From Synechococcus sp. Nb3U1 (GTDB lineage: Bacteria; Cyanobacteriota; Cyanobacteriia; Thermostichales; Thermostichaceae), in NCBI RefSeq assembly GCF_021533835.1, contig NZ_JAKFYQ010000003.1, positions 186,001-250,000 on the forward strand: a stretch of 64,000 bases of DNA, in the 5' to 3' direction. The notes under the pieces are model-generated. The model was not told the DNA's origin and ran no database searches. It worked only from the letters and a program-made list of their open reading frames with translations. A program made the position numbers and the translations under genes. This document shows, in pieces, positions 8,477-64,000 of this stretch (position 1 is the stretch's first letter; each line of letters opens with the position of its first letter).

Positions 8477-10552
8477 TCACTGCAAAACCACTTGAAAACC
8501 GATTGACCCACTCACCCCCGCCGGGATCCCATCGGGCAGAGTCACCACCACCGCTCCGTTGCGATTGGTTCCCTGACAAGCGGCAGGAACGGGTTGCCCA
8601 GCCGGGATGAACTGTGTTGTGAAATCTCGGCTGGCCACCCCAGCGATTATCACTTGGGTACTCGCCTGCAGCGGCAGTTGCGGTGAGCTGAAGGCCAGTC
8701 CCTCCGGCACCAGCACACACACTTGCACCGGAACCCGAATTGGCCCACCCAAGTTGCGAAAATCAAAGACTACCCCCCGCAACTGGTTGGCCTGCACCTC
8801 CAAAGTCGGGATCCCCTCTTGCCGGGTTTCTTGCACAATCAACCGGGCAGGATCCCAAACCAAACGACCCGCCGGGGGACGGTTGGGGGATTCTGGGGTC
8901 GGGGTGGGAGTTGGTTCAGGGGTCGGGGTAGCTGTGGGTGTCGGGGTGGGAGTTGGTTCAGGGGTCGGGGTAGCTGTGGGCGTCGGTGTCGGGATTGGCG
9001 TGGGTGTGGGCTCGGGTGTCGGGGTGGGAGTTGGTTCAGGGGTCGGGGTAGCTGTGGGCGTCGGTGTCGGCTCGGGTTCTGTCAGAGCACTTTCAAAGGC
9101 CCCGATATCGCAGGTGGTGCTAGCCGGCTGGGGACGAGTCACCCCTCTTTGGTCGAGGTTATTGATAGGGGCTGCTGCACAGATACCAGGGTCTGCGGCC
9201 TCTAGGGCGGGGCTATTGGCTACCAAGGCCAGGGTCAGAACCGGTGTTCCCGGCAGAACCCCAGCAAAGATCGTGGTGCCATTGGCAGCTAGGGTGGTCT
9301 GCAGAACCGTGGAAATAGCCCCAGTTGGCACAATGTTCCCTGCCACGGGGCAACCACCAGCATTGCCACTGACGCCAAAGACATTCTTGCTGCCGCTGAT
9401 GCTGCCGGAACATTCTTCATTGCCGGCAGAACCCGTGTTGCCAGCGATAATACTGTTGTTCACCGTCGCTGCGGTAACGGCACGGATCCCGCCGCCGCCG
9501 AAGTTTGCGCTATTGCCACTCAGGGTGCTGTTGCTCACCGTTGCGGTATTGGCACGGATCCCGCCGCCATCGAAGTTTGCGCTATTGCCACTCAGGGTGC
9601 TGTTGCTCACCGTCGCGGTAACGGCAAAGATCCCGCCGCCATAACTGCCTGCGCTATTGCCACTCAGGGTGCTGTTGCTCACCGTCGCGGTAACGGCAAT
9701 GATCCCGCCGCCATCGAAGTTTGCGCTATTGCCACTCAGGGTGCTGTTGCTCACCGTCGCGGTAACGGCAATGATCCCGCCGCCATCGTCTCCTGCGCTA
9801 TTGCCACTCAGGGTGCTGTTGCTCACCGTTGCGGTATAGGCACGGATCCCGCCGCCATCGTCTCCTGCGCTATTGCCACTCAGGGTGCTGTTGCTCACCG
9901 TTGCGGTATAGGCATAGATCCCGCCGCCATCGTCTCCTGCGCTATTGCCACTCAGGGTGCTGTTGCTCACCGTTGCGGTATAGGCATAGATCCCGCCGCC
10001 CACGTCTCCTGCGCTATTGCCACTCAGGGTGCTGTTGCTCACCGTCAGGGTGGTGCCGCTACCTGCCCGGATGCCACCACCGTCGCCAGCAGTGTTTCCA
10101 TTGCTGATGGTCAGTCCCTCAATCTCTACACTGAGGTTATTCCCAATATCAAACACCCGAACTAAATTATTCCCACTTACCTCTAGGTCGGTTGCTCCTG
10201 GCCCGTCAATCACCACATCTTCAGTAATCGTCGGTAAGGCAGTGACCAGGGTAATGATTCCTGTGACGCTGAAATCGATGGTGTCAACAGTAGGAAGAGA
10301 ATCCCCTGCTGTGCAGCCTTGCACTGCGGCATTGGTATTGGCCGCTTCGATGGCATCCCGCAGCGTACACTGCCCGGCTACAGAGCCTTGATCCAGGCTG
10401 TTCACCGTGATCGTTGCCGCCTCTGCCATTCCCGCCCACAGCACCAGTGTCGCCAGCGGGGATCCAAGCAGGAGCAACATTTTCCACCATCTGGCTAGCT
10501 GTCGCCGGTGAGACAGGGCTGGCCTGCCCGCAGAGAAAATCATTAGAACCAC
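8477..10552 (-). CDS. Exported CSLREA-type beta-helix repeat protein with Pro/Thr-rich stalk
   Basis: Predicted surface or secreted protein of 691 aa. A hydrophobic signal segment lies at about residues 25-45 (ending near GMAEAA). It is followed by a CSLREA-like domain (TITVNSL, then [11 protein letters not shown] at about 62-72), a right-handed beta-helix region, and eight 24-residue rungs with [11 protein letters not shown] and GGGI (about 156-348). A Pro/Thr/Glu-rich PTPTPEPTP-type linker spans about 489-556, and a separate strand-rich C-terminal domain of about 135 residues follows. The repeats are almost identical at DNA level, which indicates recent expansion. No cell-wall anchor or sortase motif is visible. 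Proteins of this layout are typical cyanobacterial surface or adhesin-like proteins; no ligand can be inferred. Confidence 0.82.
8885..9085 (-). repeat. Minisatellite coding the Pro/Thr-rich linker
   Basis: Degenerate direct repeats (units built around GTCGGGGTGGGAGTTGG and GTCGGGGTAGCTGTGGG on the plus strand) recur about three times between 8896 and 9065. They code [12 protein letters not shown] repeats on the minus strand. In-frame expansion would change stalk length. Confidence 0.75.
9509..10084 (-). repeat. Eight tandem 72-bp repeats inside the beta-helix gene
   Basis: Units begin at 9509, 9581, 9653, 9725, 9797, 9869, 9941 and 10013, each exactly 72 bp and each starting GCTATTGCCACTCAGGGTG on the plus strand. 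Differences are concentrated in two short windows that code the turn residues (GDD/NFD/SYG/GDV and YAY/RAY/IAV/FAV). The last unit is partly diverged. Each unit codes 24 residues, one or more beta-helix turns. Confidence 0.95.
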
Positions 10553-47190: not shown

Positions 47191-47365
47191 AGACTGGCCC
47201 TGATCCTCCACCAACAGCCTACCCAGTTTGCTGCCGGATGGGGATCTGTAGGCTTGATTCTGTTCAACGCCAGTCCACCCTAGAGCACTTCAAGCTCGTG
47301 ACAACTCCCGACACCCATCTTTATCTTTAAATTAAGTAAACACAATTCAGATGGACAATTCAGAT

Positions 47366-47411
47366 AGAGTGCGGGCTAGGAACGGCCTGCGGTCTACCCG
47401 TCGATGAGCTA
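47366..47411 (-). repeat. tRNA-D-arm-like repeat, copy 1
   Basis: On the minus strand reads AGCTCATCGACGGGTAGACC then GCAGGCCGTTCCTAGCCCGC. About 85% identical to a segment at 57896-57946. The AGCT..GGTAGA part resembles the D-arm of a tRNA, but no T-arm or acceptor stem follows. Lies upstream of rpoZ. Function unknown. Confidence 0.55.
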
Positions 47412-49710: not shown

Positions 49711-50907
49711 TCAGTCGAGGAAGAAAAAAGCGATGCCCAGGATGGTGTAGGTGGCCAGAAGTAACAACCCCTCCAACCAGTTGGACCGTCCATCGCTGCT
49801 GACGGAATTGATCAACAAGACCGAGACGGCGATCGCCACCAATTCCACCATGCCGAAGTTAAAATTCATCGGTTGATGGAGCACATCCCCTGCCAGCACA
49901 AGTAAAGGCGCCACAAACAGGGCAATTTGCATCGTCGAACCGAGAGCCACTGAGAAGGATAGATCCATCTTGTCTTTCATGGCCACCGTTACCGCCGTCG
50001 CATGTTCTGCGGCATTGCCGATAATCGGCAGCAGGATCACCCCCATGAATAGGGGCGTGACGTGAAAGTGCTCCAGGGTGCTCTCCAGGGTGCCCACCAG
50101 CAGCTCAGACTCCACCGCCACCAGCACCGTCAACCCCAGCAGAGCCAGCAGCCAAGGCCACACCCCGACTTGCTCTGGAGGCGCTGTCAACACCTGGGGA
50201 ATGGATCCCTGAGCTTGCAACACCGGATTGGGGGCAAGGCGGTCGGCGGCTTCATCTTCGGCGGCCTCCGCTTCGTGAATGCTATAGAGGTAGCTGTGGG
50301 TTTTCAGGGAGAACAGCAACGTCAACCCATACACCCCGATCAACACCAAGGCCACCGCCGTAGAGAGTTCCTGAATCGATAGCTCCCCCAAGGTGACATC
50401 GGCATAGGTAACCACGCTGGGCAAGATCAAGGCCACCACCGCCAGGTTCATCACGGAAGCATTCATGCGCGCCACTTCCGGACGAAAGCTCTGCTCCCGA
50501 AACTTAATGCCCCCCAAAAACATGGCCAAGCCCGCTACCAAGAGCAGGTTACCGATGATCGAGCCGGTAATCGAAGCCTTGACCACATCTACTAACCCGG
50601 CCCGCAGCGCCACCAACCCGATGATCAACTCCGTGGCATTGCCAAAGGTGGCATTCATCAGTCCCCCGATGGTGGGTCCTGTGAGGGCGGCAACCTCTTC
50701 GGTGGCTTGACCCATAAACTTCGCTAGGGCCACCACCGCCAAAGCGGCACAAACAAAAACCAGATTGGGATCCCAACCTTGGAAATGCCCAACCCAAGAC
50801 AAAGGGATCCCGGCCAATAACAGAATCATCAAGTTGTTCAAACCTTTCTGCCAACCTTCAGCAGAACGATCGGGAGAAACCAGCGGATTTGCATCAGCAA
50901 GGGTCAT
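49711..50907 (-). CDS. Calcium/proton antiporter (CAX/ChaA family)
   Basis: Integral membrane protein of 398 aa with about 11 hydrophobic segments. The two CaCA alpha repeats are clear: GLMNATFGNATELIIG and LLPIIGNAAEHATAV. An acidic loop in the middle (HEAEAAEDEAADRL) is typical. It exports Ca2+ in exchange for protons and contributes to salt and pH tolerance. Followed by the MscS-family gene 11 bp downstream. Confidence 0.93.
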   Translation of the reverse strand: MTLADANPLVSPDRSAEGWQKGLNNLMILLLAGIPLSWVGHFQGWDPNLVFVCAALAVVALAKFMGQATEEVAALTGPTIGGLMNATFGNATELIIGLVALRAGLVDVVKASITGSIIGNLLLVAGLAMFLGGIKFREQSFRPEVARMNASVMNLAVVALILPSVVTYADVTLGELSIQELSTAVALVLIGVYGLTLLFSLKTHSYLYSIHEAEAAEDEAADRLAPNPVLQAQGSIPQVLTAPPEQVGVWPWLLALLGLTVLVAVESELLVGTLESTLEHFHVTPLFMGVILLPIIGNAAEHATAVTVAMKDKMDLSFSVALGSTMQIALFVAPLLVLAGDVLHQPMNFNFGMVELVAIAVSVLLINSVSSDGRSNWLEGLLLLATYTILGIAFFFLD

Positions 50908-51050
50908 AGTCGCACAAGGGGGGAGAAAAAACGTGGAGCCAACAGAGGCTATTAGGAGGAGAACTGCCCAACCCCAGCGTCTCCAGACGATCAGTAGGGC
51001 ACCCCCAAAAGTCTAGCGGTTGTGAGGAGGGGTTGAATAGGTGCCGGGAG

Positions 51051-51821
51051 CTACGGAGAGATGACATGGGTGCGTTCTAGCTGACGGGCGATCTCGGCCC
51101 CCAGTTGATCCGATAACCGTCGCGGATCGGTGATTTTTAGAACGCTGCTGCCCTCCACCTCGAAGGGAAAAGATCCCGCTACTCCATCACGGGGCATTTG
51201 CACCAATAGCAACTGCTCGGGGCGCTTTGATTGCAGAGCATAACCCAACTCCAGACACACCTGCGGGCTGGGCAACGGGCGGCCATGACCATTCACCTGT
51301 ACAGGCGTGACATCAGCCACCACCAGCAGGGCATGCTTGAGCTTGCGAATCAGGGCGGCATCGATGAGCAGGGGTTCCGCCTCAGCTAGGGGGGATCCCT
51401 CCAACTGGAGGGGGATGCTGAGCTTGTGTTTGCGGTTCAGGGTATCCACTACCGCCTGGAGGGTGCGCTGTAGGATGTTGCTGGATTCGGGGTAGTCCAA
51501 TTGGCCGCAAAAGTAGATCGTCGGCTCCGTCATGCTCAGGGCGGCGCGTTTGTTAAAGTAGATCTCGCGGCTGATCAAATCCAAGTTAGAGATGCTGTAG
51601 GCACCGCTGCCCTCGATGTAAAACTCCACCAACTCCCCTTCCAGGTAGCGCTGCCACCAAAGGGAGGTTTTCACCTGCTCCACATCATCGAGAAAATCGG
51701 CTCGCATGGCTGTTTTGAGCAAGCCGGTGCGACTCAGACGCAGATCAGGGCTTTTCTGCTGAACTTGGGAGGCGGATAGAACGGAGTCCAAATACCAGGC
51801 TTTCAGGACAATGATCGCCAT
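51051..51821 (-). CDS. Conserved protein with a TIR-like/NDT-like C-terminal domain, function unknown
   Basis: Protein of 256 aa. The N-terminal about 95 residues are unrecognised. The second half looks like the domain seen in CAP12/Pycsar-type TIR-like effectors and DUF4062-like proteins: TIYFCGQLDYPESSNILQR, then HALLVVADVTPVQVNG, then the signature SPQVCLELGYALQ, then QLLLVQMP and SFPFEVEG. In that family the E of LELGYA is the active-site-like glutamate, and NAD+ or nucleotides are the substrates. This gene stands alone, with no cyclase or other defence partner. Whether it is an enzyme is not known. Confidence 0.5.
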   Translation of the reverse strand: MAIIVLKAWYLDSVLSASQVQQKSPDLRLSRTGLLKTAMRADFLDDVEQVKTSLWWQRYLEGELVEFYIEGSGAYSISNLDLISREIYFNKRAALSMTEPTIYFCGQLDYPESSNILQRTLQAVVDTLNRKHKLSIPLQLEGSPLAEAEPLLIDAALIRKLKHALLVVADVTPVQVNGHGRPLPSPQVCLELGYALQSKRPEQLLLVQMPRDGVAGSFPFEVEGSSVLKITDPRRLSDQLGAEIARQLERTHVISP

Positions 51822-51882
51822 GGGATCCCTCTGAGTTTAGCCTCAAAGGTACCTGATTTTTTCGGAGAGCGTTATACCCCAT

Positions 51883-53106
51883 TCAACCCAACTGAAGCGC
51901 CAGATCCAGCAGTCGATGGGCCATGATCGATTTTGTACAAGGAAGGATTGTTTCAATGTTTCCGCAGCGCGGGATCCAATAGCCCTGGTTATGAAGGCTT
52001 CCAAATCCACTGTCCGGTAGATCGATTGGGTTGGCCACGATGGCATCCAGTCCTTTCTGGTGCAGTTTGGCTTGAGCGGGCGGTAAAGGATCCCCCGTTT
52101 GCGCAGCAAAGCCAATGATGCGTTGATCGGGGTGTTTGCTCTGGCTTAAAGTCCCCACGAGATCGGGGATCTGTTCCAAGGGCAGCATCTCCGGCAACTG
52201 CGCTTTCGGTAACTTTCCCGCATAGGGCTGAGAGGGTCTCACATCTCCAACGGCAGCAGCCATCCAAAGCATATCCACCTGCGGGAAGAGGGTACTTAAT
52301 GTGTTCTCCAATTGGGCAGCGGTCTCTACAGCAAGGGCTTGAATGCCGAATGGTTCCGGCTGAAATGGGATCCCGAGCGGCCCATGTACCATGGTCACGC
52401 TTGCCCCCCGACAGGCGGCCGCCACAGCTAAAGCGATTCCCATCCGACCACTGGCAGGGTTGCCGATAAACCGCACCGCATCGATCGGTTCTCGGGTACC
52501 GCCGGCACTAACCAAAACCCGTTTGCCCTGCCAGTCCCGTTGCCCCTTTGTCCACACCAAGGCCAGCGCATATTCCTGCAATGCTTCGGGCTCCAACATG
52601 CGTCCTTCCCCCACAGCATCACAGGCCAAACGCCCACTAACGGTCGGTAAGGCCCAAAAGCGGGGATCCCGCTGTAATAGCTGCCAATTCTGAGCTACAG
52701 CCTGAGCCCGCCACATTTGAGTATTCATGGCTGGAGCCACCGCCACCGGACACTGGGAAGCCAGCACTACATTGGTGAGCAGATTGTCTGCAAGGCCATG
52801 AGTCAATTTACTTAATGTATTGGCCGATAGTGGGGCGATCAAAATGGCTTCTGCCCATTCTCCCAACTCGATGTGCAGAGGACGGCCCCGTGTTGATTGC
52901 CAAAACTCCACGTCGGTCAGAGTCGGTTGTCGGGACAAAGCCGCAAAGGTGAGGGGAGAAACAAATTTTTCTGCTGCCGCCGTTAGAACCACTTTCACCT
53001 CTGCTCCCTGTTGGACCAACCCAGAGACTAAGGCACAGGTTTTGTAGGCAGCAATTCCCCCACTTACCCCGATGAGGAGGCGCCGACTTGACCAAAAGGG
53101 ATCCAT
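51883..53106 (-). CDS. coaBC: Bifunctional phosphopantothenoylcysteine decarboxylase/phosphopantothenate-cysteine ligase
   Basis: Coenzyme A synthesis, steps 2 and 3; 407 aa. The CoaC flavoprotein half has RRLLIGVSGGIAAYK, the PLSANTLSK and VAPAMNTQMW blocks, and the catalytic cysteine in LACDAVGEGRM. The CoaB half has VLVSAGGTREPIDAVRF and the ASGRMGIALA nucleotide motif, then DAIVANPIDLPDSGFGS. The normal LACG motif reads LACD here, a small change next to the key Cys. Start at ATG 53106 within MDPFWSS. The C-terminal tail is short. Confidence 0.96.
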   Translation of the reverse strand: MDPFWSSRRLLIGVSGGIAAYKTCALVSGLVQQGAEVKVVLTAAAEKFVSPLTFAALSRQPTLTDVEFWQSTRGRPLHIELGEWAEAILIAPLSANTLSKLTHGLADNLLTNVVLASQCPVAVAPAMNTQMWRAQAVAQNWQLLQRDPRFWALPTVSGRLACDAVGEGRMLEPEALQEYALALVWTKGQRDWQGKRVLVSAGGTREPIDAVRFIGNPASGRMGIALAVAAACRGASVTMVHGPLGIPFQPEPFGIQALAVETAAQLENTLSTLFPQVDMLWMAAAVGDVRPSQPYAGKLPKAQLPEMLPLEQIPDLVGTLSQSKHPDQRIIGFAAQTGDPLPPAQAKLHQKGLDAIVANPIDLPDSGFGSLHNQGYWIPRCGNIETILPCTKSIMAHRLLDLALQLG

Positions 53107-53498
53107 GCAGAGTTGACAACAAAACAATCTTGATTCCAGTTTCCCTGTTTTTGTTCGATTCCGCCGCTAGAATCCGAATCTATAGGCTAGAGATACTTTG
53201 GTCTGCATACACGACGTTGCCGAGAACATTACCTTTGTCCTGCATGGGTTGTCCATCCACCTGACGACAAACCGCTCTTCTCAACTGACGTGAAAGTTTC
53301 AGCACAGACAATCACCAACGATGTCATCAGGGAAGTCAATTTCCACTGCTGTTTTGCGCACTCTATTCGCTGGCCAAAATCAGATCAGTGAACTTATTTC
53401 ATTGGATAAGAACAGGTTTGATCGAAACTCTATTGCAAGTTCTGTTTCTTTCTGGCTACACTAACTGTTGTCCTCAAATCATCTTGATATGTCTTGAT
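53107..53498. other. Intergenic region between coaBC and the AbrB gene
   Basis: About 392 bp with no gene supported. It holds divergent promoters. AT-rich at 53400-53490. The in-frame extension of the AbrB gene to 53388 crosses this region but has no family similarity. Confidence 0.5.
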
Positions 53499-53867
53499 AT
53501 GGCTACAACCACCAAAGCAAAACCGCTGACCGGACAAGAACTCCTCGATAAGGTGACTTCGATGGAGAACGTGGATCGCAAAGAAAAGGCTCGTGCCTGT
53601 GGTTATGTCACCTACACCAAGAATGGCCAAGAGCGTGTGAATTTGATGCAGTTTAACAATGCCCTGCTCAAGGCTGTCGGTGTCGATCTGGATGCTAGCG
53701 ATGAAAATGGATCTCGGGGTCGCGCACCCACCTTCCGTGTGTCAGTTCATAAGAATGGCAACCTACTGATTGGCGCTGCCTACACCAAGAAGATGGGGCT
53801 CAAGCCCGGTGATGAGTTCGAGATTAAGTTGGGCCACCACAACATCAAACTAGAGCGCCTCGACTAA
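53499..53867 (+). CDS. Cyanobacterial AbrB-family transcriptional regulator
   Basis: Protein of 122 aa that matches the cyAbrB family (Sll0359/Sll0822 type) from the start MATTTKAKPLTGQELLDKV through KEKARACGYVT and the C-terminal AbrB fold (GNLLIGAAYTKKMGLKPGDEFEIKLG). cyAbrB proteins regulate carbon/nitrogen balance, hydrogenase and other genes, and are nearly universal in cyanobacteria. The upstream extension contains a hydrophobic stretch and is rejected. A GGCTCTC/GAGAGCC hairpin lies 30 bp after the stop. Confidence 0.95.
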   Translation: MATTTKAKPLTGQELLDKVTSMENVDRKEKARACGYVTYTKNGQERVNLMQFNNALLKAVGVDLDASDENGSRGRAPTFRVSVHKNGNLLIGAAYTKKMGLKPGDEFEIKLGHHNIKLERLD

Positions 53868-53897
53868 TCTCTTAATCTCTCTTCGTTTGTCGGTTCA

Positions 53898-53918
53898 GGC
53901 TCTCCATGGCCGAGAGCC
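53898..53918 (+). terminator. Hairpin after the AbrB gene, possible terminator
   Basis: Perfect 7-bp stem GGCTCTC/GAGAGCC with a 7-base loop, 30 bp after the stop codon. No T run follows immediately (first is TTTT about 16 bp on), so termination is uncertain. Confidence 0.4.
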
Positions 53919-54109
53919 CACTCCAGGTAAGGTTTTACTCCCAATCTTCTGTTTTCCTGAGAGTGTCGGAGGGGCAAGTAGCTCCCCAGGTTAGTTTTCT
54001 TAACCAAGGGATCTCTGGTGGATAGGGATCCCTAATGATTCGTATCAACAAGCAGATTGGCTGCTATGCAGTTCGTTATCCTGAGAGCAGATGAATTTGG
54101 GCTGTGGCG

Positions 54110-54898
54110 ATGAGTAATCGGACATTTCAGAACCTTTCTCGCCATTGGCGACGGTGGCGAACTTGGGTGGGGCTATTGTTGCTGGGGGTGGTTTTCGTTG
54201 GGATCAAGTCTTTTTCCCCTGTTTGGTCCCAAAACGAGTCTCCTTTGCAGTGGGTTTCTTCTCAGCCCACCCCTGAACAACGGGATGTCTATGTGGATGG
54301 GGTGATTCGGTTGCAATTTAATCAGCCCTTGGATACCAATCTGCGCCGTTTGGTCGCAGATCTGGATCCCCCGGCACCGGTGATTTTTGATGTGCAAGGG
54401 AATGAGCTATTGCTGAAATCTCGGGATCCCTTGAACTTTAGTACCGATTATACCCTCACAGTTTCTCCTCAGGAAGGGTTGCCCCTAGAGCAGGCGATAC
54501 GGCTACCCTTTCGCACTGAGCCGGAATTCACCTATGAAAAAGATATCAAGCCGCTATTGGAAGCCAGTTGTGTGGGCTGTCATCAACCCGCTGGGCGTCA
54601 ACGTACCCAATTGTTAGACAGCTACGAAGCAACTTTGGCCTATGTGACACCGGGAGATGCCAACAGCGAATTGCTCAATCCTCGCTGGACGGGCCGTCAT
54701 GCCACTATCCTGAATGTGAATAACCCCAACCGCCCCCAACCCCGAGGTGGATCCCCTGAAATTGCCTACATTCAAGCCCGCGGACTGCCCTTGTCCCGTC
54801 TTGGCTTCTGGACACCGGAAGAAGTGGAGATTGTCCGCACCTGGATTGTGCAGGATGGGGCCCCCCAGACCAGCGCTCGTGTGCAGGCGGGTGAGTAG
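54110..54898 (+). CDS. Membrane-anchored c-type haem protein with Ig-like domain
   Basis: Protein of about 262 aa. One N-terminal membrane anchor (WVGLLLLGVVFVGIKSF) is followed by an Ig-like domain (DVYVDGVIRLQFNQPLD ... DYTLTV, about 60-140). A single c-type haem motif CVGCH (Cys154, Cys157, His158) sits in a planctomycete-cytochrome-c-like context (DIKPLLEASCVGCH, then the conserved WTPEEVEIVRTWIVQDGAP at the end). It would sit on the periplasmic or lumenal side. Redox partner unknown. Start at ATG 54110 or the GTG two codons earlier. Confidence 0.78.
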   Translation: MSNRTFQNLSRHWRRWRTWVGLLLLGVVFVGIKSFSPVWSQNESPLQWVSSQPTPEQRDVYVDGVIRLQFNQPLDTNLRRLVADLDPPAPVIFDVQGNELLLKSRDPLNFSTDYTLTVSPQEGLPLEQAIRLPFRTEPEFTYEKDIKPLLEASCVGCHQPAGRQRTQLLDSYEATLAYVTPGDANSELLNPRWTGRHATILNVNNPNRPQPRGGSPEIAYIQARGLPLSRLGFWTPEEVEIVRTWIVQDGAPQTSARVQAGE

Positions 54899-55053
54899 AT
54901 AAAAGACCTATGAAAGAGTCTTTGAAGTGAAAGCAAAAGGCGAAAGACCGACATCTGAAAGACATCTGAAGTACAAAAGTAAAAATAAAACAACAAATAA
55001 GATCCTCAAAACACCAACAGACCCCCTCGGATCTGTTCTGGAGCCCCATAGCT
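54899..55053. other. A-rich gap before the HerA-like gene
   Basis: AT-rich, with short AAAG-rich stretches at 54900-55010, unlike the GC-rich surroundings. No gene seen. The only site of note is GGAG about 12 bp before the next ATG. Confidence 0.5.
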
Positions 55054-56763
55054 ATGACCGCTTCGCAACCTTTGGCCACCGTCATTCAGGGATCCCTGAG
55101 CCGCGGACTGGAAGCTCGCCTCAACCCTGGCATTTCGGTGGAAGATCTGCGGGTGGGTAAGTTTATGGTCATTCAAGGACAACGGAACCGCTTCTTCGGC
55201 CTGCTCACGGATGTCACCCTTGAGGTCAGCAACAGCCAGATCTTGATCAACCCACCTCGCCCGGAAGAGGTGCTGCTGCGGGAAGTTTTGGCCGGTACCA
55301 GCACCTATGGCATCATCGCCCTCACCCCGATGTTGATGTTGGTGCCACGGGAGACCGAAGTAGAACGGGAGTATTCTCTGGCCAATCCAGACTTGGCAGA
55401 ACCTCAAACGGCCCCTACCCCTGCCAGCATGGAACTGTTGCCCGTCAAAACGGTACCGGCCCATTTCTCACAGGTATACGAGGCGCGGGAGCTGGATTTT
55501 CGCACCGTATTCGGTTGGGAAGAAGATCCGAATCGGCGCAACTTTGCCATTGGCCAGCCGATCGACATGCCCGTCCCCATCTGTCTGGATCTGGATCGCT
55601 GGGTGGAGCGCAGCAACGGCATTTTTGGTAAATCTGGCACCGGCAAATCTTTTCTAACTCGCTTGATCCTCTCGGGCATCATTCGCAAACGGGCGGCAGT
55701 GAACCTAATCTTCGATATGCACTCAGAATATGGCTGGGAGGCAGCCACCGAAGGGAAGCAATTCAACACCGTCAAAGGCTTGCGACAACTGTTCCCTGGT
55801 CAAGTGCAAATCTATACCTTGGATCCCGATTCCACCCAGCGGCGGGGGGTGCGTGATGCTCAGGAACTCTACATTGCCTACAACCAAATCGATGTAGAAG
55901 ATCTGGCGCTACTGGCGGGAGAGTTGAACCTGTCGGAAGCCAGCCTAGAAAATGCCATCATCCTACGCAACGAGTTTGGCCGCGATTGGATCAGCCGTCT
56001 GTTGAGCCTCTCCAACACCGAGATTCAAGAGTTTTGCGAGCAGAAAATGGGCAATAAAGCTTCGATGATGGCTCTGCAACGCAAGCTAACCCGCCTCGAT
56101 GACCTGAAATACATCCGCAACAGCCTGCCCCACAACTACATCGGCCAAATCCTGGATGCCCTCAGTCGTGGTATTCATGTGGTGATCGAGTTCGGATCCC
56201 AGTCCAACTTGCTCTCCTACATGTTGGCCACCAACGTGATCACCCGCCGTATTCACCAAGCTTATGTTCATCAGGCGGAGCGGTACCTGCAATCCAAAAA
56301 TCCCCTCGATAAACCGCGCCAGCTCTGTATCACCATCGAAGAGGCGCACCGTTTTTTGGATCCCCGCGCAGCCAAGCAAACCATTTTCGGCACCATTGCC
56401 CGCGAGATGCGCAAATATTTTGTTACTCTGCTGGTGGTAGATCAGCGCCCCTCCAGTATCGACAGCGAAGTGATGTCGCAACTGGGCACCCGTATCACTG
56501 CCCTGCTCAATGATGACAAAGATATCGAAGCGGTCTTCACGGGGGTAGCGGGTAGCCAAAACTTAAAAACCGTGCTGGCCAAGCTGGACTCCAAACAACA
56601 AGCCCTCCTCCTCGGCCATGCTGTCCCCATGCCGGTGGTGGTGCAGACCCGTCCTTATGATCAGCAGTTTTATGTTGAGATTGCCGATCCCGATTGGTCG
56701 CAGGCTTCGGATGCGGAGGTGCTCCTGGCGGCACAACAAGCTAAGGCAGATTTGGGGTTGTAG
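55054..56763 (+). CDS. HerA-like ATPase (DUF87) with HAS-barrel-like N-terminus
   Basis: Protein of 569 aa of the HerA/FtsK superfamily. The N-terminal about 110 residues are strand-rich like the HAS barrel (DLRVGKFMVIQGQRNRFFGLLTDV). Walker A is GKSGTGKS (about 192-199), with DMHSEYGW after it. Walker B is in ITIEEAHRFLDP, and the sensor/arginine region is VDQRPSSIDSEVMSQLGTRI. HerA forms hexameric DNA-translocating motors, usually paired with the NurA nuclease for end resection, or in newer defence systems with other effectors. No NurA gene is next to it. It stands 155 bp after the haem protein gene on the same strand. Confidence 0.9.
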   Translation: MTASQPLATVIQGSLSRGLEARLNPGISVEDLRVGKFMVIQGQRNRFFGLLTDVTLEVSNSQILINPPRPEEVLLREVLAGTSTYGIIALTPMLMLVPRETEVEREYSLANPDLAEPQTAPTPASMELLPVKTVPAHFSQVYEARELDFRTVFGWEEDPNRRNFAIGQPIDMPVPICLDLDRWVERSNGIFGKSGTGKSFLTRLILSGIIRKRAAVNLIFDMHSEYGWEAATEGKQFNTVKGLRQLFPGQVQIYTLDPDSTQRRGVRDAQELYIAYNQIDVEDLALLAGELNLSEASLENAIILRNEFGRDWISRLLSLSNTEIQEFCEQKMGNKASMMALQRKLTRLDDLKYIRNSLPHNYIGQILDALSRGIHVVIEFGSQSNLLSYMLATNVITRRIHQAYVHQAERYLQSKNPLDKPRQLCITIEEAHRFLDPRAAKQTIFGTIAREMRKYFVTLLVVDQRPSSIDSEVMSQLGTRITALLNDDKDIEAVFTGVAGSQNLKTVLAKLDSKQQALLLGHAVPMPVVVQTRPYDQQFYVEIADPDWSQASDAEVLLAAQQAKADLGL

Positions 56764-56791
56764 CGAGTTATCTCAGCAGCAGGGTCGAGTC

Positions 56792-57799
56792 CTAGGGGAT
56801 CAACACCACCTTCCCCTGCACCAACCGTTGGCTGAGGTAGTAGTGAGCATCGGCTGCAGCTCCTAGGGGAAAGATTTTGTCTACCACCACCTGCAATTTG
56901 CCCCCATCCACCAAAGCCGCCACCTGCTCCAAAATCCATCGTTGATGGGCCAGGGCGGTAGGGAGATTCATCAGTTGCGGGGTGAGCATAAGGGTAAATT
57001 GAATGTCTAAGTTGCGCTGGCGGGCCACTTTCCAGGGGGTATCTGGAGCTGGTTCGAGGAGGGTACAGAGGCGGCCATAAGGACGCAGAGCCTGAAAGGT
57101 TTGGCCGAGGGTGGCGTCGCCGACGGTATCAAGGGCAAAATCAACCCCTTGACCCGCCGTCCAGTCAAGCACTGCCTCCACCCAGTTGTCTGTCTTGTAG
57201 AGGATAGTTAAGGTGGCACCTAGCCGTTCTACAAATTGGGCCTTGGCCCTAGAGCCAACGGTGGTGGCTACAGCCGCCCCCAATTGCCGTGCCAGTTGAA
57301 TTGCCAAATGCCCTACCCCTCCTGCGCCGGCGTGAATCAGGAGGGTCTTGGGAGTGGCTTTGGGGAATGCAGGGTTGCCCCGATCGCCCAGAGCTTCCCA
57401 AGCGGTGATGACTGCTAAGGGTAAGGCTGCGGCCTGAACGAAGGACAAAGACTTGGGTTTGTGGGCAAGGGCTATTTCGGGAGCAACCGTGTACTCAGCG
57501 TAACAGCCGCCCCGATCCCCTAGGCCACCGTAGCAAAAGTACACTTCGTCTCCCACCTGAAATTGCCGTACTGCCGAACCCACAGCAACCACTACCCCGG
57601 CTCCATCACACCCCAGGATCGCCAGCCCCCGATCCGGGTAAAAGGTGCCTCGCTGCCGCAACTTGGTATCAATGGGGTTGACACTGGCGGCCCGCAGTTG
57701 GATTTTTACCTCGTTAGGAGCCTCAATCTCAGGCTCCGGCAGATCCCGCAGAACCAATACTTCTGGATCGCCGAATTCTTTGATGACAATGGCTTTCAT
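56792..57799 (-). CDS. Zinc-free MDR-family quinone oxidoreductase-like protein
   Basis: NAD(P)H-dependent oxidoreductase of 335 aa of the medium-chain dehydrogenase/reductase superfamily. The catalytic GroES-like half has IKEFGDPEVLVLRDLPEPE, VNPIDTKLRQRG and LGCDGAGVVVAVG. The Rossmann motif AGAGGVGHLAIQLARQ follows. The zinc-ligand Cys/His set of alcohol dehydrogenases is absent, which places it in the zeta-crystallin/QOR-type group. Substrate unknown. GAAGGT precedes the start. Confidence 0.9.
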   Translation of the reverse strand: MKAIVIKEFGDPEVLVLRDLPEPEIEAPNEVKIQLRAASVNPIDTKLRQRGTFYPDRGLAILGCDGAGVVVAVGSAVRQFQVGDEVYFCYGGLGDRGGCYAEYTVAPEIALAHKPKSLSFVQAAALPLAVITAWEALGDRGNPAFPKATPKTLLIHAGAGGVGHLAIQLARQLGAAVATTVGSRAKAQFVERLGATLTILYKTDNWVEAVLDWTAGQGVDFALDTVGDATLGQTFQALRPYGRLCTLLEPAPDTPWKVARQRNLDIQFTLMLTPQLMNLPTALAHQRWILEQVAALVDGGKLQVVVDKIFPLGAAADAHYYLSQRLVQGKVVLIP

Positions 57800-57895
57800 G
57801 TACCTTCAGGGGACTCTTGAAGAGGTTAGCAAATGGTTCGGTTGATAGGAACCCTCTTGTCGCTTGACCAATGCACAAACGCAAATAATGCACAA

Positions 57896-57946
57896 ATACA
57901 GTGCGGGGCTAGGAACGACCTGCGCTCTACCGGTTGATTCAGCTCC
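57896..57946 (-). repeat. tRNA-D-arm-like repeat, copy 2
   Basis: On the minus strand it reads AGCTGAATCAACCGGTAGAG then CGCAGGTCGTTCCTAGCCCC and GCACTG, close to copy 1 at 47366-47411. It lies in the non-coding gap between the MDR gene and the broken PPC gene. No anticodon or T-arm can be folded. Confidence 0.55.
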
Positions 57947-58032
57947 AAAAAGGCGTTGACTGTGATCTGGATCCTGGCCAGTTGGCCCCCTTTGCTCTAT
58001 GACGGGGATATCCATTGCGGAGCCCTACTGCT

Positions 58033-58486
58033 ATGCGTTTTGCTACTTTGCCCCCCCTCAGTCTGGGTCTAATCGCCAGCTGCCTGCTGTTCGGCCAACC
58101 TTCCACATTGGCCCAATCTTTTTATAATCCTTTATAATCCGATCCCGCTCAGGGCTGGAGAAGCCGTCGAGTCTGCCTTAACTCCAGAAGACATTCCTAC
58201 CGGCGAGGTTGGGGCTTTTCACCGCGACTACTGCATCCGGGTAGAGTCGGGCACTTATCTGGCCATAGAGCTGTCTTCCGAGGATTTCGACACGGTGGTG
58301 CGGCTGCTCGGCTCGGATGGCAGCCTATTGGGAGAAAATGATGATGCCAACTACGAAACTACCAACTCGATTTTGGTTAGCCGCGTGGAGCCGGGCCAAG
58401 ACTACACCATTCGGGTGGGCAGCTATGGGGAAGTCGGGGCGGGGCGTTTTCAGTTGAAGGTGATCCCGCTGCGCCCGGTGGACTAG
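58033..58486 (+). pseudogene. Secreted PPC-domain protein interrupted by a 10-bp tandem duplication
   Basis: The ATG at 58033 opens a signal peptide (SLGLIASCLLFGQPSTLAQ), but the frame ends at TAA 58135-58137 after 34 codons. The sequence TTTATAATCC occurs twice in direct tandem at 58121-58130 and 58131-58140. With one copy removed the frame runs on without a stop to 58486. It then reads a normal exported PPC (pre-peptidase C-terminal) domain of about 140 aa: PTGEVGAFHRDYCIRVESGTY, then SSEDFDTVVRLLGSDGSLLG, ENDDAN, and VEPGQDYTIRVGSYG. This is a clean single-event inactivation, in principle reversible. Confidence 0.85.
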
Positions 58487-58580
58487 CCTAGACGAAGGCT
58501 TGGGCTGTGAGCCCATCAGCCGTTGGCTGAGCATTCCCTAGCGTTCACTGATCAAGAGAAGAGTAAAGAGAAAAGCTCTG

Positions 58581-59246
58581 ATGTTGAACCTGCGTCGCTG
58601 GATCCTGGTTGTTTTGAGTGTGTGTCTCTGGGTGGGGGGGTGCTCTGCTTCCCATTCGCAGCAGCCCCTTTTGCTTGCGGATCCGCCGGCGGTAGCCACC
58701 TTTGCGGGGGGCTGTTTTTGGTGCATGGAGCCGCCCTTCGATAAGCTACCGGGAGTTTTGAGCACCACCTCCGGCTACATGGGAGGGCATACCCCGGATC
58801 CCACCTACCCAGAGGTCTCTCGAGGCAATACCGGCCATTACGAGGTGGTGCAGGTGGCTTACGACCCTGAGGTGGTCACCTATCCAGAGCTGTTGCAGGT
58901 GTTTTGGCGTAATGTGGATCCCTTCGATGCGTCAGGGCAATTTTGTGACAAAGGAGATCAATACCGCTCTGCCATTTTTGTAGGCAATGAAGCCGAGCGA
59001 GAGTGGGCCGAAACCTCTAAAGCTGCTCTAGAAAGTCGTTTTTCAGAGCCGATTGTTACAGCGGTGTTGCCGGCAGCCACCTTTTACCCCGCCGAAGATT
59101 ACCACCAAGACTATTACCTGAAAAATCCGCATCGTTATCAGTTCTATCGCTACGCTTGTGGGCGGGATCGGCGCTTGGTAGAAGTCTGGGGCCAGGTGCG
59201 CCAGGAGCCGGTGCACAAGGATGAGTCCCACGAGATTGTGGATTGA
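58581..59246 (+). CDS. msrA: Peptide methionine-S-sulfoxide reductase A, predicted lipoprotein form
   Basis: Reduces methionine-S-sulfoxide in proteins and free methionine. Protein of 221 aa; catalytic motif GGCFWCMEPPF with nucleophile Cys45, then SGYMGGHTPDPTYPEVSRG, GHYEVVQVAYDPEVV, FCDKGDQYRS and AEDYHQDYYLKNPHRYQFY. The first 21 residues form a hydrophobic signal with lipobox VGGC (lipid Cys21). The enzyme is thus probably anchored in the outer or inner membrane and faces the periplasm, rather than being the usual cytosolic MsrA. The methionine-R enzyme MsrB is not adjacent. Confidence 0.94.
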   Translation: MLNLRRWILVVLSVCLWVGGCSASHSQQPLLLADPPAVATFAGGCFWCMEPPFDKLPGVLSTTSGYMGGHTPDPTYPEVSRGNTGHYEVVQVAYDPEVVTYPELLQVFWRNVDPFDASGQFCDKGDQYRSAIFVGNEAEREWAETSKAALESRFSEPIVTAVLPAATFYPAEDYHQDYYLKNPHRYQFYRYACGRDRRLVEVWGQVRQEPVHKDESHEIVD

Positions 59247-59264
59247 TTGCTGAGAGTTGATCGC

Positions 59265-60434
59265 TTAGCGTGTCTGCGTGAGCCGCACCCCTGGGAAATA
59301 GTGGTTGAGAATGTGTTGGGCTGTATAGCCCTGCTCAGCTATACCACGGGATCCCCACTGACACAGGCCGACCCCATGCCCTGCCCCCCGATAGGTGAAA
59401 GAGTACTGACGGGATCCCTCTGGAGGTTGTTCTAATGTAAAGCGATTGCTGGGGAGGATCCCCCACCCCAGGGTTTGGCCAAGACGCAATCCAAAGGTTT
59501 GCCCATCCCAAATGCGGGATCCAACGCGAATGCGCAGGGGTCGACCCCAGGGATCCGATTGCACCACCTGGAGATCTGAACTGCCCAGAGCTTGTTCTAG
59601 ATCCGTCGCAGTGACCTGGACGGTGTAGGGGCCATAAAAGGGAGAATCTCGGCACCACTCACAGACGACCCCCTGCAGATAGGGGTGGGCGGGTGGGGCA
59701 AAAATATCCTGGTTGGCGCTGGTGTGGCCGCCGCAGGTGGAGTGGAACAGAGCGGCGATCGGTTGCCCATCCCTCGGATCGATCAGGATCTGTCCTTGGG
59801 TTGAGCGAACGGCGGCAGTGGTGGCGGCAGTTTCGTAGGTGAGGCCCCCATAGACCTGATCGGCGGTGGAGTCGCGGAGACGGGATCCCTCGGGAAGATC
59901 CACTCCTAGCCTGGGTTGCAGATAGGGAAGCGCCAACGTGCGGGCGAGAATCGCCTGTGCTTGTAGAGCGGCAGCCGGCCAGTCGGGGGGCATTTCGCTG
60001 GGCACCAAACCCCACAGGTATTCCTCCAGTTCTACCCAGTTGATCAGACGCATCTGGTCAGCAGCCTCAGGACGGATCTGCAGCAAACCCCGATAGCGCT
60101 GCCGTTCCCCGCTTGGGGAACGTAATTCTCCCCCCTGTAACCAAAGGGATCCCTGATAGCGACGCGGTTGCCCCGGCCCCGTTAAAAAAAGCTGCTGGTG
60201 ATGGACATGCAGCCGCCAAGTTCCACCGGGAAAAGGTTGTCGCTCCAAAACAAAAGGCCCGGTCAATTCCAGGGTGGTCAGAGGATCCCTTCCCAAACGG
60301 CTGAACAGATCCACCGGCACCCAACCCCGCAGATTCACACGTCCTGGTGAAGTTTCAGCCTCAGCGGTTGGGGTGGAGATTGCCCACAGGGATCCCAGCA
60401 CCATAATCCCAAGCTGTCGTCGGCGCATCGGCAT
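59265..60434 (-). CDS. SpoIID/LytB-domain exported protein
   Basis: Protein of about 389 aa. Signal peptide (QLGIMVLGSLWAIS, cleavage near AEAE). An N-terminal strand-rich region is followed by the SpoIID domain: LEEYLWGLVPSEMPPDWPAAALQAQAILARTLAL, DQVYGGL-YE, FHSTCGGHTSANQDI, and the C-terminal GAGHGVGLCQWGSRGIAEQG. SpoIID domains are peptidoglycan lytic transglycosylases or amidase partners in spore formers; in cyanobacteria the role is likely cell-wall turnover. The longer frame up to 60533 reads into inverted-repeat element copy E. ATG 60434 with AGGAG just upstream, or ATG 60428, are the plausible starts. Confidence 0.87.
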   Translation of the reverse strand: MPMRRRQLGIMVLGSLWAISTPTAEAETSPGRVNLRGWVPVDLFSRLGRDPLTTLELTGPFVLERQPFPGGTWRLHVHHQQLFLTGPGQPRRYQGSLWLQGGELRSPSGERQRYRGLLQIRPEAADQMRLINWVELEEYLWGLVPSEMPPDWPAAALQAQAILARTLALPYLQPRLGVDLPEGSRLRDSTADQVYGGLTYETAATTAAVRSTQGQILIDPRDGQPIAALFHSTCGGHTSANQDIFAPPAHPYLQGVVCEWCRDSPFYGPYTVQVTATDLEQALGSSDLQVVQSDPWGRPLRIRVGSRIWDGQTFGLRLGQTLGWGILPSNRFTLEQPPEGSRQYSFTYRGAGHGVGLCQWGSRGIAEQGYTAQHILNHYFPGVRLTQTR

Positions 60435-60475
60435 GGATCTCCTGTGCATCCTCCCAATTTCTTCCCATAGCACAT

Positions 60476-60581
60476 TACAGCCTTTATTTAGCATTATCTG
60501 ATATGGCAGATTCAGGTCAATCCCTTGCCCCATAAAGTTTTTTGCCTAGCTCAAGAGCCTATGCGAAGCCGAAAAAGTGTA
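60476..60581 (+). repeat. Dispersed inverted-repeat element, copy E
   Basis: TACAGCC at the left end and a decayed AAAAAGTGTA at the right, with TA at both ends. The interior GATTCAGGTCAATCCCTTG, GTTTTTTGCCTAGCTCAAG is nearly identical to copies B and D. It sits between the atpB terminator and the SpoIID gene and extends the SpoIID open frame spuriously. Confidence 0.88.
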
Positions 60582-60605
60582 TCCTGAAGCACATTAATTG
60601 ACAGG

Positions 60606-60637
60606 ATAAAAAATAAAAAAAGCCCCTTCAGGGGCCA
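60606..60637 (-). terminator. Rho-independent terminator of atpB
   Basis: On the minus strand GGCCCC-TGAA-GGGGCT is followed by TTTTTTATTTTTTAT, 30 bp after the atpB stop. Strong stem and T tract. Confidence 0.92.
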
Positions 60638-60664
60638 AGCAAAAACGAGCCTGAGAAGAGAGCT

Positions 60665-62465
<1,801 letters not shown>

Positions 62466-63359
62466 GTGACAGCCCTTTCGATGGCCCCAACCTTACCTCA
62501 GACCCAGCCGGCGGCGGTGGAACTGCAATCGGTATGGAAACGCTTTGGGGAGCAGGTTGCCGTTCAAGACCTGAGTTTACGGATCCCACAGGGAGAAGTG
62601 TTCGGGTTGCTAGGGCCAAATGGAGCCGGGAAATCGACCACCATCCGTATGCTGACCAGCCTCACCCGACCCAGCCAGGGATCCATTCAGGTGGGGGGCT
62701 ACGACGTGGTACGGGATCCCTTGCTTGTCCGGCAACAGATCGGGGTGGTATTGCAACCAATCACTCTAGAGGCGGAGCTGAGCGTTTGGGAAAACCTAGA
62801 GTTTCATGCCCGAATGCACCACATCCCCAACCCGGAGCGGCAACAGCGCATTGACCAGTGGCTGGAGTATGTGCGCCTGGCGGATCGGCGACAGGACAAG
62901 GTGAGAACCCTTTCCGGGGGTATGAAACGCCGCTTACAAGTGGCCAGGGCCCTGTTGCATCGACCGCAAATTTTGTTTTTGGATGAGCCTACTGTCGGGT
63001 TGGATCCGCAGGCACGGCGGCTACTGTGGGAGATCATGCGGAATTTGAACCAGCAGGGGATGACCTTGTTGGTGACCACCCACTATATGGAAGAAGCAGA
63101 AGAACTGTGTGACCGCATCGGCATTATGGAGGGCGGGCGGTTGATCGAATTGGGCAGCCCAGCCCAGTTGCGAGCCAAACATGGGGAAGCCCTACTGGTG
63201 CGTTCCCGTCCCGGACTCGAGGCCGACTACACCTTTTTCCCCAGCTTGGCCGAAGCCCAAAGGCAGTTGGAGTTAGAACCCGACAAAACCGGCCTGATGG
63301 TACGTCCTGCCAACTTAGAGGATATCTTCGTGCGGCTGACGGGCCGTCGCCTGGATTAG
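62466..63359 (+). CDS. ABC transporter ATP-binding protein (ABC-2 / drug-export type)
   Basis: Protein of 297 aa. Walker A GPNGAGKS (about 50-57), Q-loop VVLQPIT, signature LSGGMKRRL, Walker B ILFLDEPTVGLDP, and H-loop TTHYMEEAEELCDR. The D-x-L-x-x-P-S-Q-x-x-I-x-V layout and the short C-terminal extension fit the DrrA/NodI class that works with ABC-2 permeases. The GTG at 62466 with GGAG six bases upstream is preferred; ATG 62481 is an alternative. No permease follows, because the next gene is convergent with a 4-bp overlap. Confidence 0.92.
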   Translation: MTALSMAPTLPQTQPAAVELQSVWKRFGEQVAVQDLSLRIPQGEVFGLLGPNGAGKSTTIRMLTSLTRPSQGSIQVGGYDVVRDPLLVRQQIGVVLQPITLEAELSVWENLEFHARMHHIPNPERQQRIDQWLEYVRLADRRQDKVRTLSGGMKRRLQVARALLHRPQILFLDEPTVGLDPQARRLLWEIMRNLNQQGMTLLVTTHYMEEAEELCDRIGIMEGGRLIELGSPAQLRAKHGEALLVRSRPGLEADYTFFPSLAEAQRQLELEPDKTGLMVRPANLEDIFVRLTGRRLD

Positions 63360-64000
63360 TTCTTTTCCCCCACCCACCCCTCCCCGGAAGGGGGTTCAAA
63401 CTTGTAGCCCACCCCACGCACGGTGCGAACCAACTCCGGTTTGCTGGTATCCGTTTCTAGTTTCTTGCGGATCTGACCGATGTGAACATCTACCACCCGT
63501 TCATCCCCCTCGTGGTTGAAGTCCCACACCTCCTGAATTAACTCAGCCCGTCGCCAAACCCGGCCCGGATGTCGGGCCAGAGCGTAGAGCAGGTCAAATT
63601 CCAACGCAGTCAAGTTGATCGGGCGCTGATTTCGGGTCACTTCTCGCGTTTCGGGGTCGATCACCAAAGAGGCGAAGGTCAACATCGGCGCGCTGGCAAT
63701 CTCGGTTTTTAGCCGTTGTCGCCGCAAAATAGCTTGCACTCGCGCTTGTAATTCTGGCAAGCTGAAAGGCTTGGTCAGATAGTCATCTGCCCCCAACTGG
63801 AAACCCTGCAATTTGTCGGCAGCACTGACCCGGCTGGTCAGCATCAGCACGTACACGCCAGTTTCTTTTTGCATTTGCTGACAGAGGTCGTAACCGCTCA
63901 CATCCGGCAAATTCAGATCCAAAATCACCAAAATCGGTTGGAAGGAGCGCAACCGTTGTAAGCCTTCCGCCCCGGTAACTGCCACCTCGACCGAATACCC
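63356..64000 (-). CDS. OmpR-type response regulator, C-terminal part (5' end outside window)
   Basis: The frame stays open to the window edge. The visible part has the receiver domain with the phosphorylation motif LVILDLNLPDVSG, MLTSRVSAADKL, and switch lysine in [14 protein letters not shown] winged-helix domain follows (LTALEFDLLYALARHPGRVWRRAELIQEVW, DVHIGQIRKKLE, VRTVRGVGYKFEP). The partner kinase is not visible. Clearly a different regulator from RpaA; the name cannot be fixed without the N-terminus and neighbours. Confidence 0.9.
   Translation of the reverse strand, partial: GYSVEVAVTGAEGLQRLRSFQPILVILDLNLPDVSGYDLCQQMQKETGVYVLMLTSRVSAADKLQGFQLGADDYLTKPFSLPELQARVQAILRRQRLKTEIASAPMLTFASLVIDPETREVTRNQRPINLTALEFDLLYALARHPGRVWRRAELIQEVWDFNHEGDERVVDVHIGQIRKKLETDTSKPELVRTVRGVGYKFEPPSGEGWVGEKN

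Follow-up and report, generated by a model that had tools for sequence, protein, structure and literature searches.

The window, the whole stretch of 64,000 nucleotides that was analysed, contains a gene for a small secreted protein whose reading frame is split by a short tandem duplication, with two genes downstream of it that could be used as synteny anchors. The features at the locus are as follows.

58033 to 58137, plus strand: 5' part of the broken gene, with the signal peptide and the first mature residues, 34 codons ended by a premature TAA (reading frame; alignment to the beginning of the intact ortholog in G005, a relative introduced below).
58121 to 58140, plus strand: frame-shifting lesion, an exact 2 x TTTATAATCC tandem duplication (direct read and Tandem Repeats Finder; single unit in the G005 ortholog).
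58142 to 58486, plus strand: PPC-domain body, 114 codons and a stop in the other frame, with conservation reaching the final residue (open frame, domain match and alignments).
58581 to 59246, plus strand: downstream neighbour, intact gene for peptide methionine sulfoxide reductase (MsrA), synteny anchor with G005.
59265 to 60533, minus strand: gene for a SpoIID-domain protein, second synteny anchor with G005.

Direct reading of the sequence placed two exact, adjacent, head-to-tail copies of TTTATAATCC at 58121–58130 and 58131–58140, in the context ...CAATCTTTTTATAATCCTTTATAATCCGATCCCGC..., and the same array was also called by Tandem Repeats Finder. The array covers exactly 20 bp (2.0 units), with a partial third copy on neither flank and no microhomology at the junction, and its 20-mer occurs only once genome-wide (3.49 Mb). 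Translation from ATG 58033 gives MRFATLPPLSLGLIASCLLFGQPSTLAQSFYNPL, having a signal-peptide-like N-terminus, and ends after 34 codons at the TAA of 58135–58137. The remainder of the protein is encoded in another frame, which stays open across the array, from 58073 to the stop codon at 58484–58486, and which, compared with G005, has no further stop or indel in its remaining 114 codons. The pair and its coordinates, the stop after 34 codons through a shifted frame and the otherwise intact remainder had all been described in an earlier note made from the sequence alone, and were borne out here. Rescue of the downstream frame by an internal start was considered and rejected, as ATG, GTG and TTG are absent from that frame before 58295, which falls inside the domain. 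Low-level +1 ribosomal slippage at TCT-TTT-TAT may occur on the two-copy allele. A promoter role for the duplicated TATAAT was likewise rejected, no sigma-70-like site having been found around it, and the region 50000–64000 gave no Rfam match to an RNA element.

The downstream fragment on its own matched PF04151 (PPC) with E=1.6e-4 and 22.9 bits, just below the curated cut-off of 25.9. Searching the window's own genome together with 38 relatives, family matches were found in 29 of the 39, with the best matches in other families of the class at 39–51% identity; judged by these matches, the family is widespread in cyanobacteria. All 18 aligned family members matched PF04151 (best E 1.2e-9) and most matched NCBIfam NF038127, with 23 columns invariant among the 18 sequences. 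Like the other small secreted PPC-domain proteins of cyanobacteria (PF04151; NF038127), the window gene encodes a signal peptide followed by (Y)NPIPL..., the DIPTG, RDY, FDT, ENDD and TNS motifs and a C-terminal LKV..LRP, but it differs from them in being frameshifted after 34 codons and in having its own Pfam score under the cut-off. A single-sequence AlphaFold model (pLDDT 76) had nine strands, and the PPC domain 5sv5 gave the highest TM-scores (0.59/0.64) among the PDB matches listed. A beta-sandwich fold like that of solved PPC domains is thus predicted with moderate support, because the E-value for 5sv5 was a weak 2.2e-3; searching solved structures by sequence gave no match. Taken together, the family match, the presence of PPC in 18 of 18 members and the model indicate that the gene codes for a small secreted PPC-domain protein, as had been proposed in the earlier note. 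A literature search found no report on this PPC gene.

The nearest relative having the gene, G005, belongs to the same genus, and its ortholog adjoins the same msrA and SpoIID-like genes. At the site aligned with the TTTATAATCC pair, G005 carries one diverged unit, TTTACAACCC, that forms no array, and its reading frame is intact with 145 aa. With a single unit and an open frame in this syntenic ortholog, the two-copy form is therefore derived, and the one-copy, open gene that the earlier note had obtained by removing one copy does exist in a relative. When genome contigs were searched for conspecific or more distant alleles, one distant match only was obtained. A zinc-type alcohol dehydrogenase gene (56792–57799) lies upstream of the broken gene and occupies another location in G005, whose PPC ortholog is preceded by a different gene; since the upstream neighbours differ, the upstream context has been rearranged. 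Four other species of the genus (G001–G004) yielded no ortholog in either DNA or protein searches, solely distant PPC proteins with about 25–36% identity, and in G002 another gene precedes msrA and nothing left of the PPC gene was found there. The PPC gene is dispensable in the genus.

Across the 114 downstream codons, comparison of the window with G005 gave a pS of 0.587, a pN of 0.090 and a pN/pS of 0.153, values from one saturated pair (dS about 1.1) having little power to date the event, as compared with pN/pS of 0.182 (msrA) and 0.252 (SpoIID-like gene) in the same pair. This shows the downstream half to have evolved under normal purifying constraint. Since constraint was in force for almost the whole period after the split and no other stop or indel is present, the inactivation is recent, although its precise age is not given by so saturated a pair. 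The recent event proposed in the earlier note thus agrees with both the low ratio and the absence of other lesions. What we found is as expected of a recent pseudogene, in that the gene is disabled by a lesion that its intact ortholog does not have and has decayed little further.

We also determined how common such duplications are, using spaced stretches covering 464 kb of this genome and 400 kb of G004, with second-order Markov sequence as the null. Exact two-copy duplications with periods of 9, 10, 11 and 12 numbered 27, 9, 8 and 9 in this genome, to be compared with expectations of 2.0, 1.8, 0.5 and 0.1 (about 1–1.8 for period 10), and 15, 7, 5 and 3 in G004. From base composition, about 0.05 exact 10-bp tandem pairs would be expected per 64 kb. 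As the observed numbers exceeded chance and many cases were alike, the TTTATAATCC pair is beyond chance yet belongs to a common class, and two-copy duplications of 9–12 bp are common in both this genome and its sister genome. Considering periods of at least 9 in this genome, 17 of the 41 duplications with a multiple of three were located inside long ORFs, versus 0 of the 22 others; every one of the 17 inside long ORFs in the sample was consequently a multiple of three, with all 22 others outside. Such a bias is to be expected where selection acts against frameshifts on top of an ordinary mutational process. Seven of the nine period-10 arrays were exactly 20 bp long, and junction microhomology is therefore unnecessary for their formation.

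Another exact 10-bp pair, TCTTGATATG x2, is found at 53482–53501, 4.6 kb from the TTTATAATCC pair, where it spans the initiation codon (53499) of a conserved gene, MATTTKAKPLTGQELLDKV..., that is AbrB-like by eye. The single-unit state is seen in three of the four relatives aligned at this site (G001, G003 and G004), and that position holds a different insertion in G002, so that the alignments indicate a duplication derived independently of that of TTTATAATCC. The first TCTTGATATG copy makes a two-codon mini-ORF, ATG-TCT-TGA, just ahead of the real ATG, which could alter translation of the AbrB-like gene. Fragments of an interspersed repeat with the core CGTTCCTAGCCCCGCACTGTACC are present at 57896–57946, in the intergenic region upstream of the broken gene and about 200 bp ahead of the TTTATAATCC pair, and at about 47361–47411. 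The core had 18 matches in this genome, while part of it occurred at 10 places in G001 and at least 40 in G004. The repeat may represent one terminus of a small non-autonomous mobile element; its tRNA-like look was followed up, with no tRNA found at the repeat copies. No tandem array in the window is stronger than a 72-bp repeat at 9453–10045, which has eight copies with 92% matches.

The earlier note had viewed the arrangement as phase-variation-like, that is, as a contingency gene in which gain or loss of the 10-bp unit by slipped-strand mispairing toggles a surface or periplasmic protein. Ten is not divisible by three, so that a change in copy number does shift the frame and the two-copy form stops early; the copies are perfect with the rest of the frame intact, and secreted products are typical of phase-variable genes. 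Classical slippage switches have many units, and two alleles in a population. The window gene shares with them a unit length not divisible by three, within a gene for a secreted protein, but has only two units instead of a long array of several to many, one known allele (from the single genome of the species), and a relative, G005, with one diverged and non-repetitive unit. Similar two-copy duplications are moreover scattered genome-wide, mostly outside genes, and the sister species are without the gene altogether rather than having it switched. One unit could physically be lost, as it could from any two-copy duplication. In Mycobacterium tuberculosis Erdman, tandem-repeat copy-number variation changes gene output, deep reads detected minority alleles at 1 in 1,000 to 1 in 10,000, and the repeat variants were termed phase-variable only once ultra-deep reads had revealed such alleles (PMC12817950). 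Those repeats have a promoter location, longer units and demonstrated subpopulations (PMC12817950), in contrast to the coding 10-bp pair with one allele found here. With two units, common duplications that are not switches and a gene absent in sister species, the phase-variable reading was left unsupported, and we consider it very unlikely. Just as doubtful is a broader version, by which the frequent 9–12-bp duplications of the lineage would act as a slow, reversible source of mutation, with mixed one- and two-copy alleles in mat populations and low-rate phase variation without long tracts; a literature search found no report of reversible two-copy 10-bp duplications in cyanobacteria.

Should the pair instead be an error of assembly or sequencing, the true genome would have one copy and an intact gene, in line with the full constraint on the rest of the gene. 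However, neither short- nor long-read errors typically take the form of an exact 10-bp duplication in non-repetitive sequence, misassembly more often collapses repeats, the assembly has 4 contigs and is 99.89% complete, and the comparable duplication at 53482 and others represent a real biological class, making an error more improbable still. Least probable is a 10-bp target-site duplication left as the footprint of an excised mobile element. The array of exactly 2.0 units lacking junction microhomology would suit such an origin, as would the repeat fragment upstream, but no element remnant lies between the copies and there was no peak at period 10 (9, 8 and 9 cases at periods 10, 11 and 12), which makes a fixed-length transposon footprint less likely. 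Clean excision keeping both target copies is also unusual for bacterial insertion sequences.

We therefore favour, with a probability of roughly 0.85, the view that this PPC gene in a hot-spring-type cyanobacterium is a recent spontaneous loss-of-function allele on its way to becoming a pseudogene; ordinary gene inactivation is most likely, and a purpose-built on/off switch is disfavoured. A spontaneous 10-bp tandem duplication would have arisen just after the signal-peptide region, by replication slippage, template switching or fill-in repair, shifting the frame and leaving a 34-codon stub, so that functional protein would not be made from the two-copy allele. The lesion is probably fixed or common in the strain, as represented by the one genome of the species. 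The protein is dispensable in the genus, and the mutation would have been caught before decay or purging. No programmed switching would be implied; loss of one unit could occasionally revert the allele, and such reversion may have occurred in part of the population.

Given how common short two-copy duplications are in these genomes, single cases should not be read as switches. The locus would instead capture gene loss cleanly at its very beginning, when one duplication has shifted the frame of a gene that was otherwise constrained until recently, and this in a genus in which four other species have no such gene.
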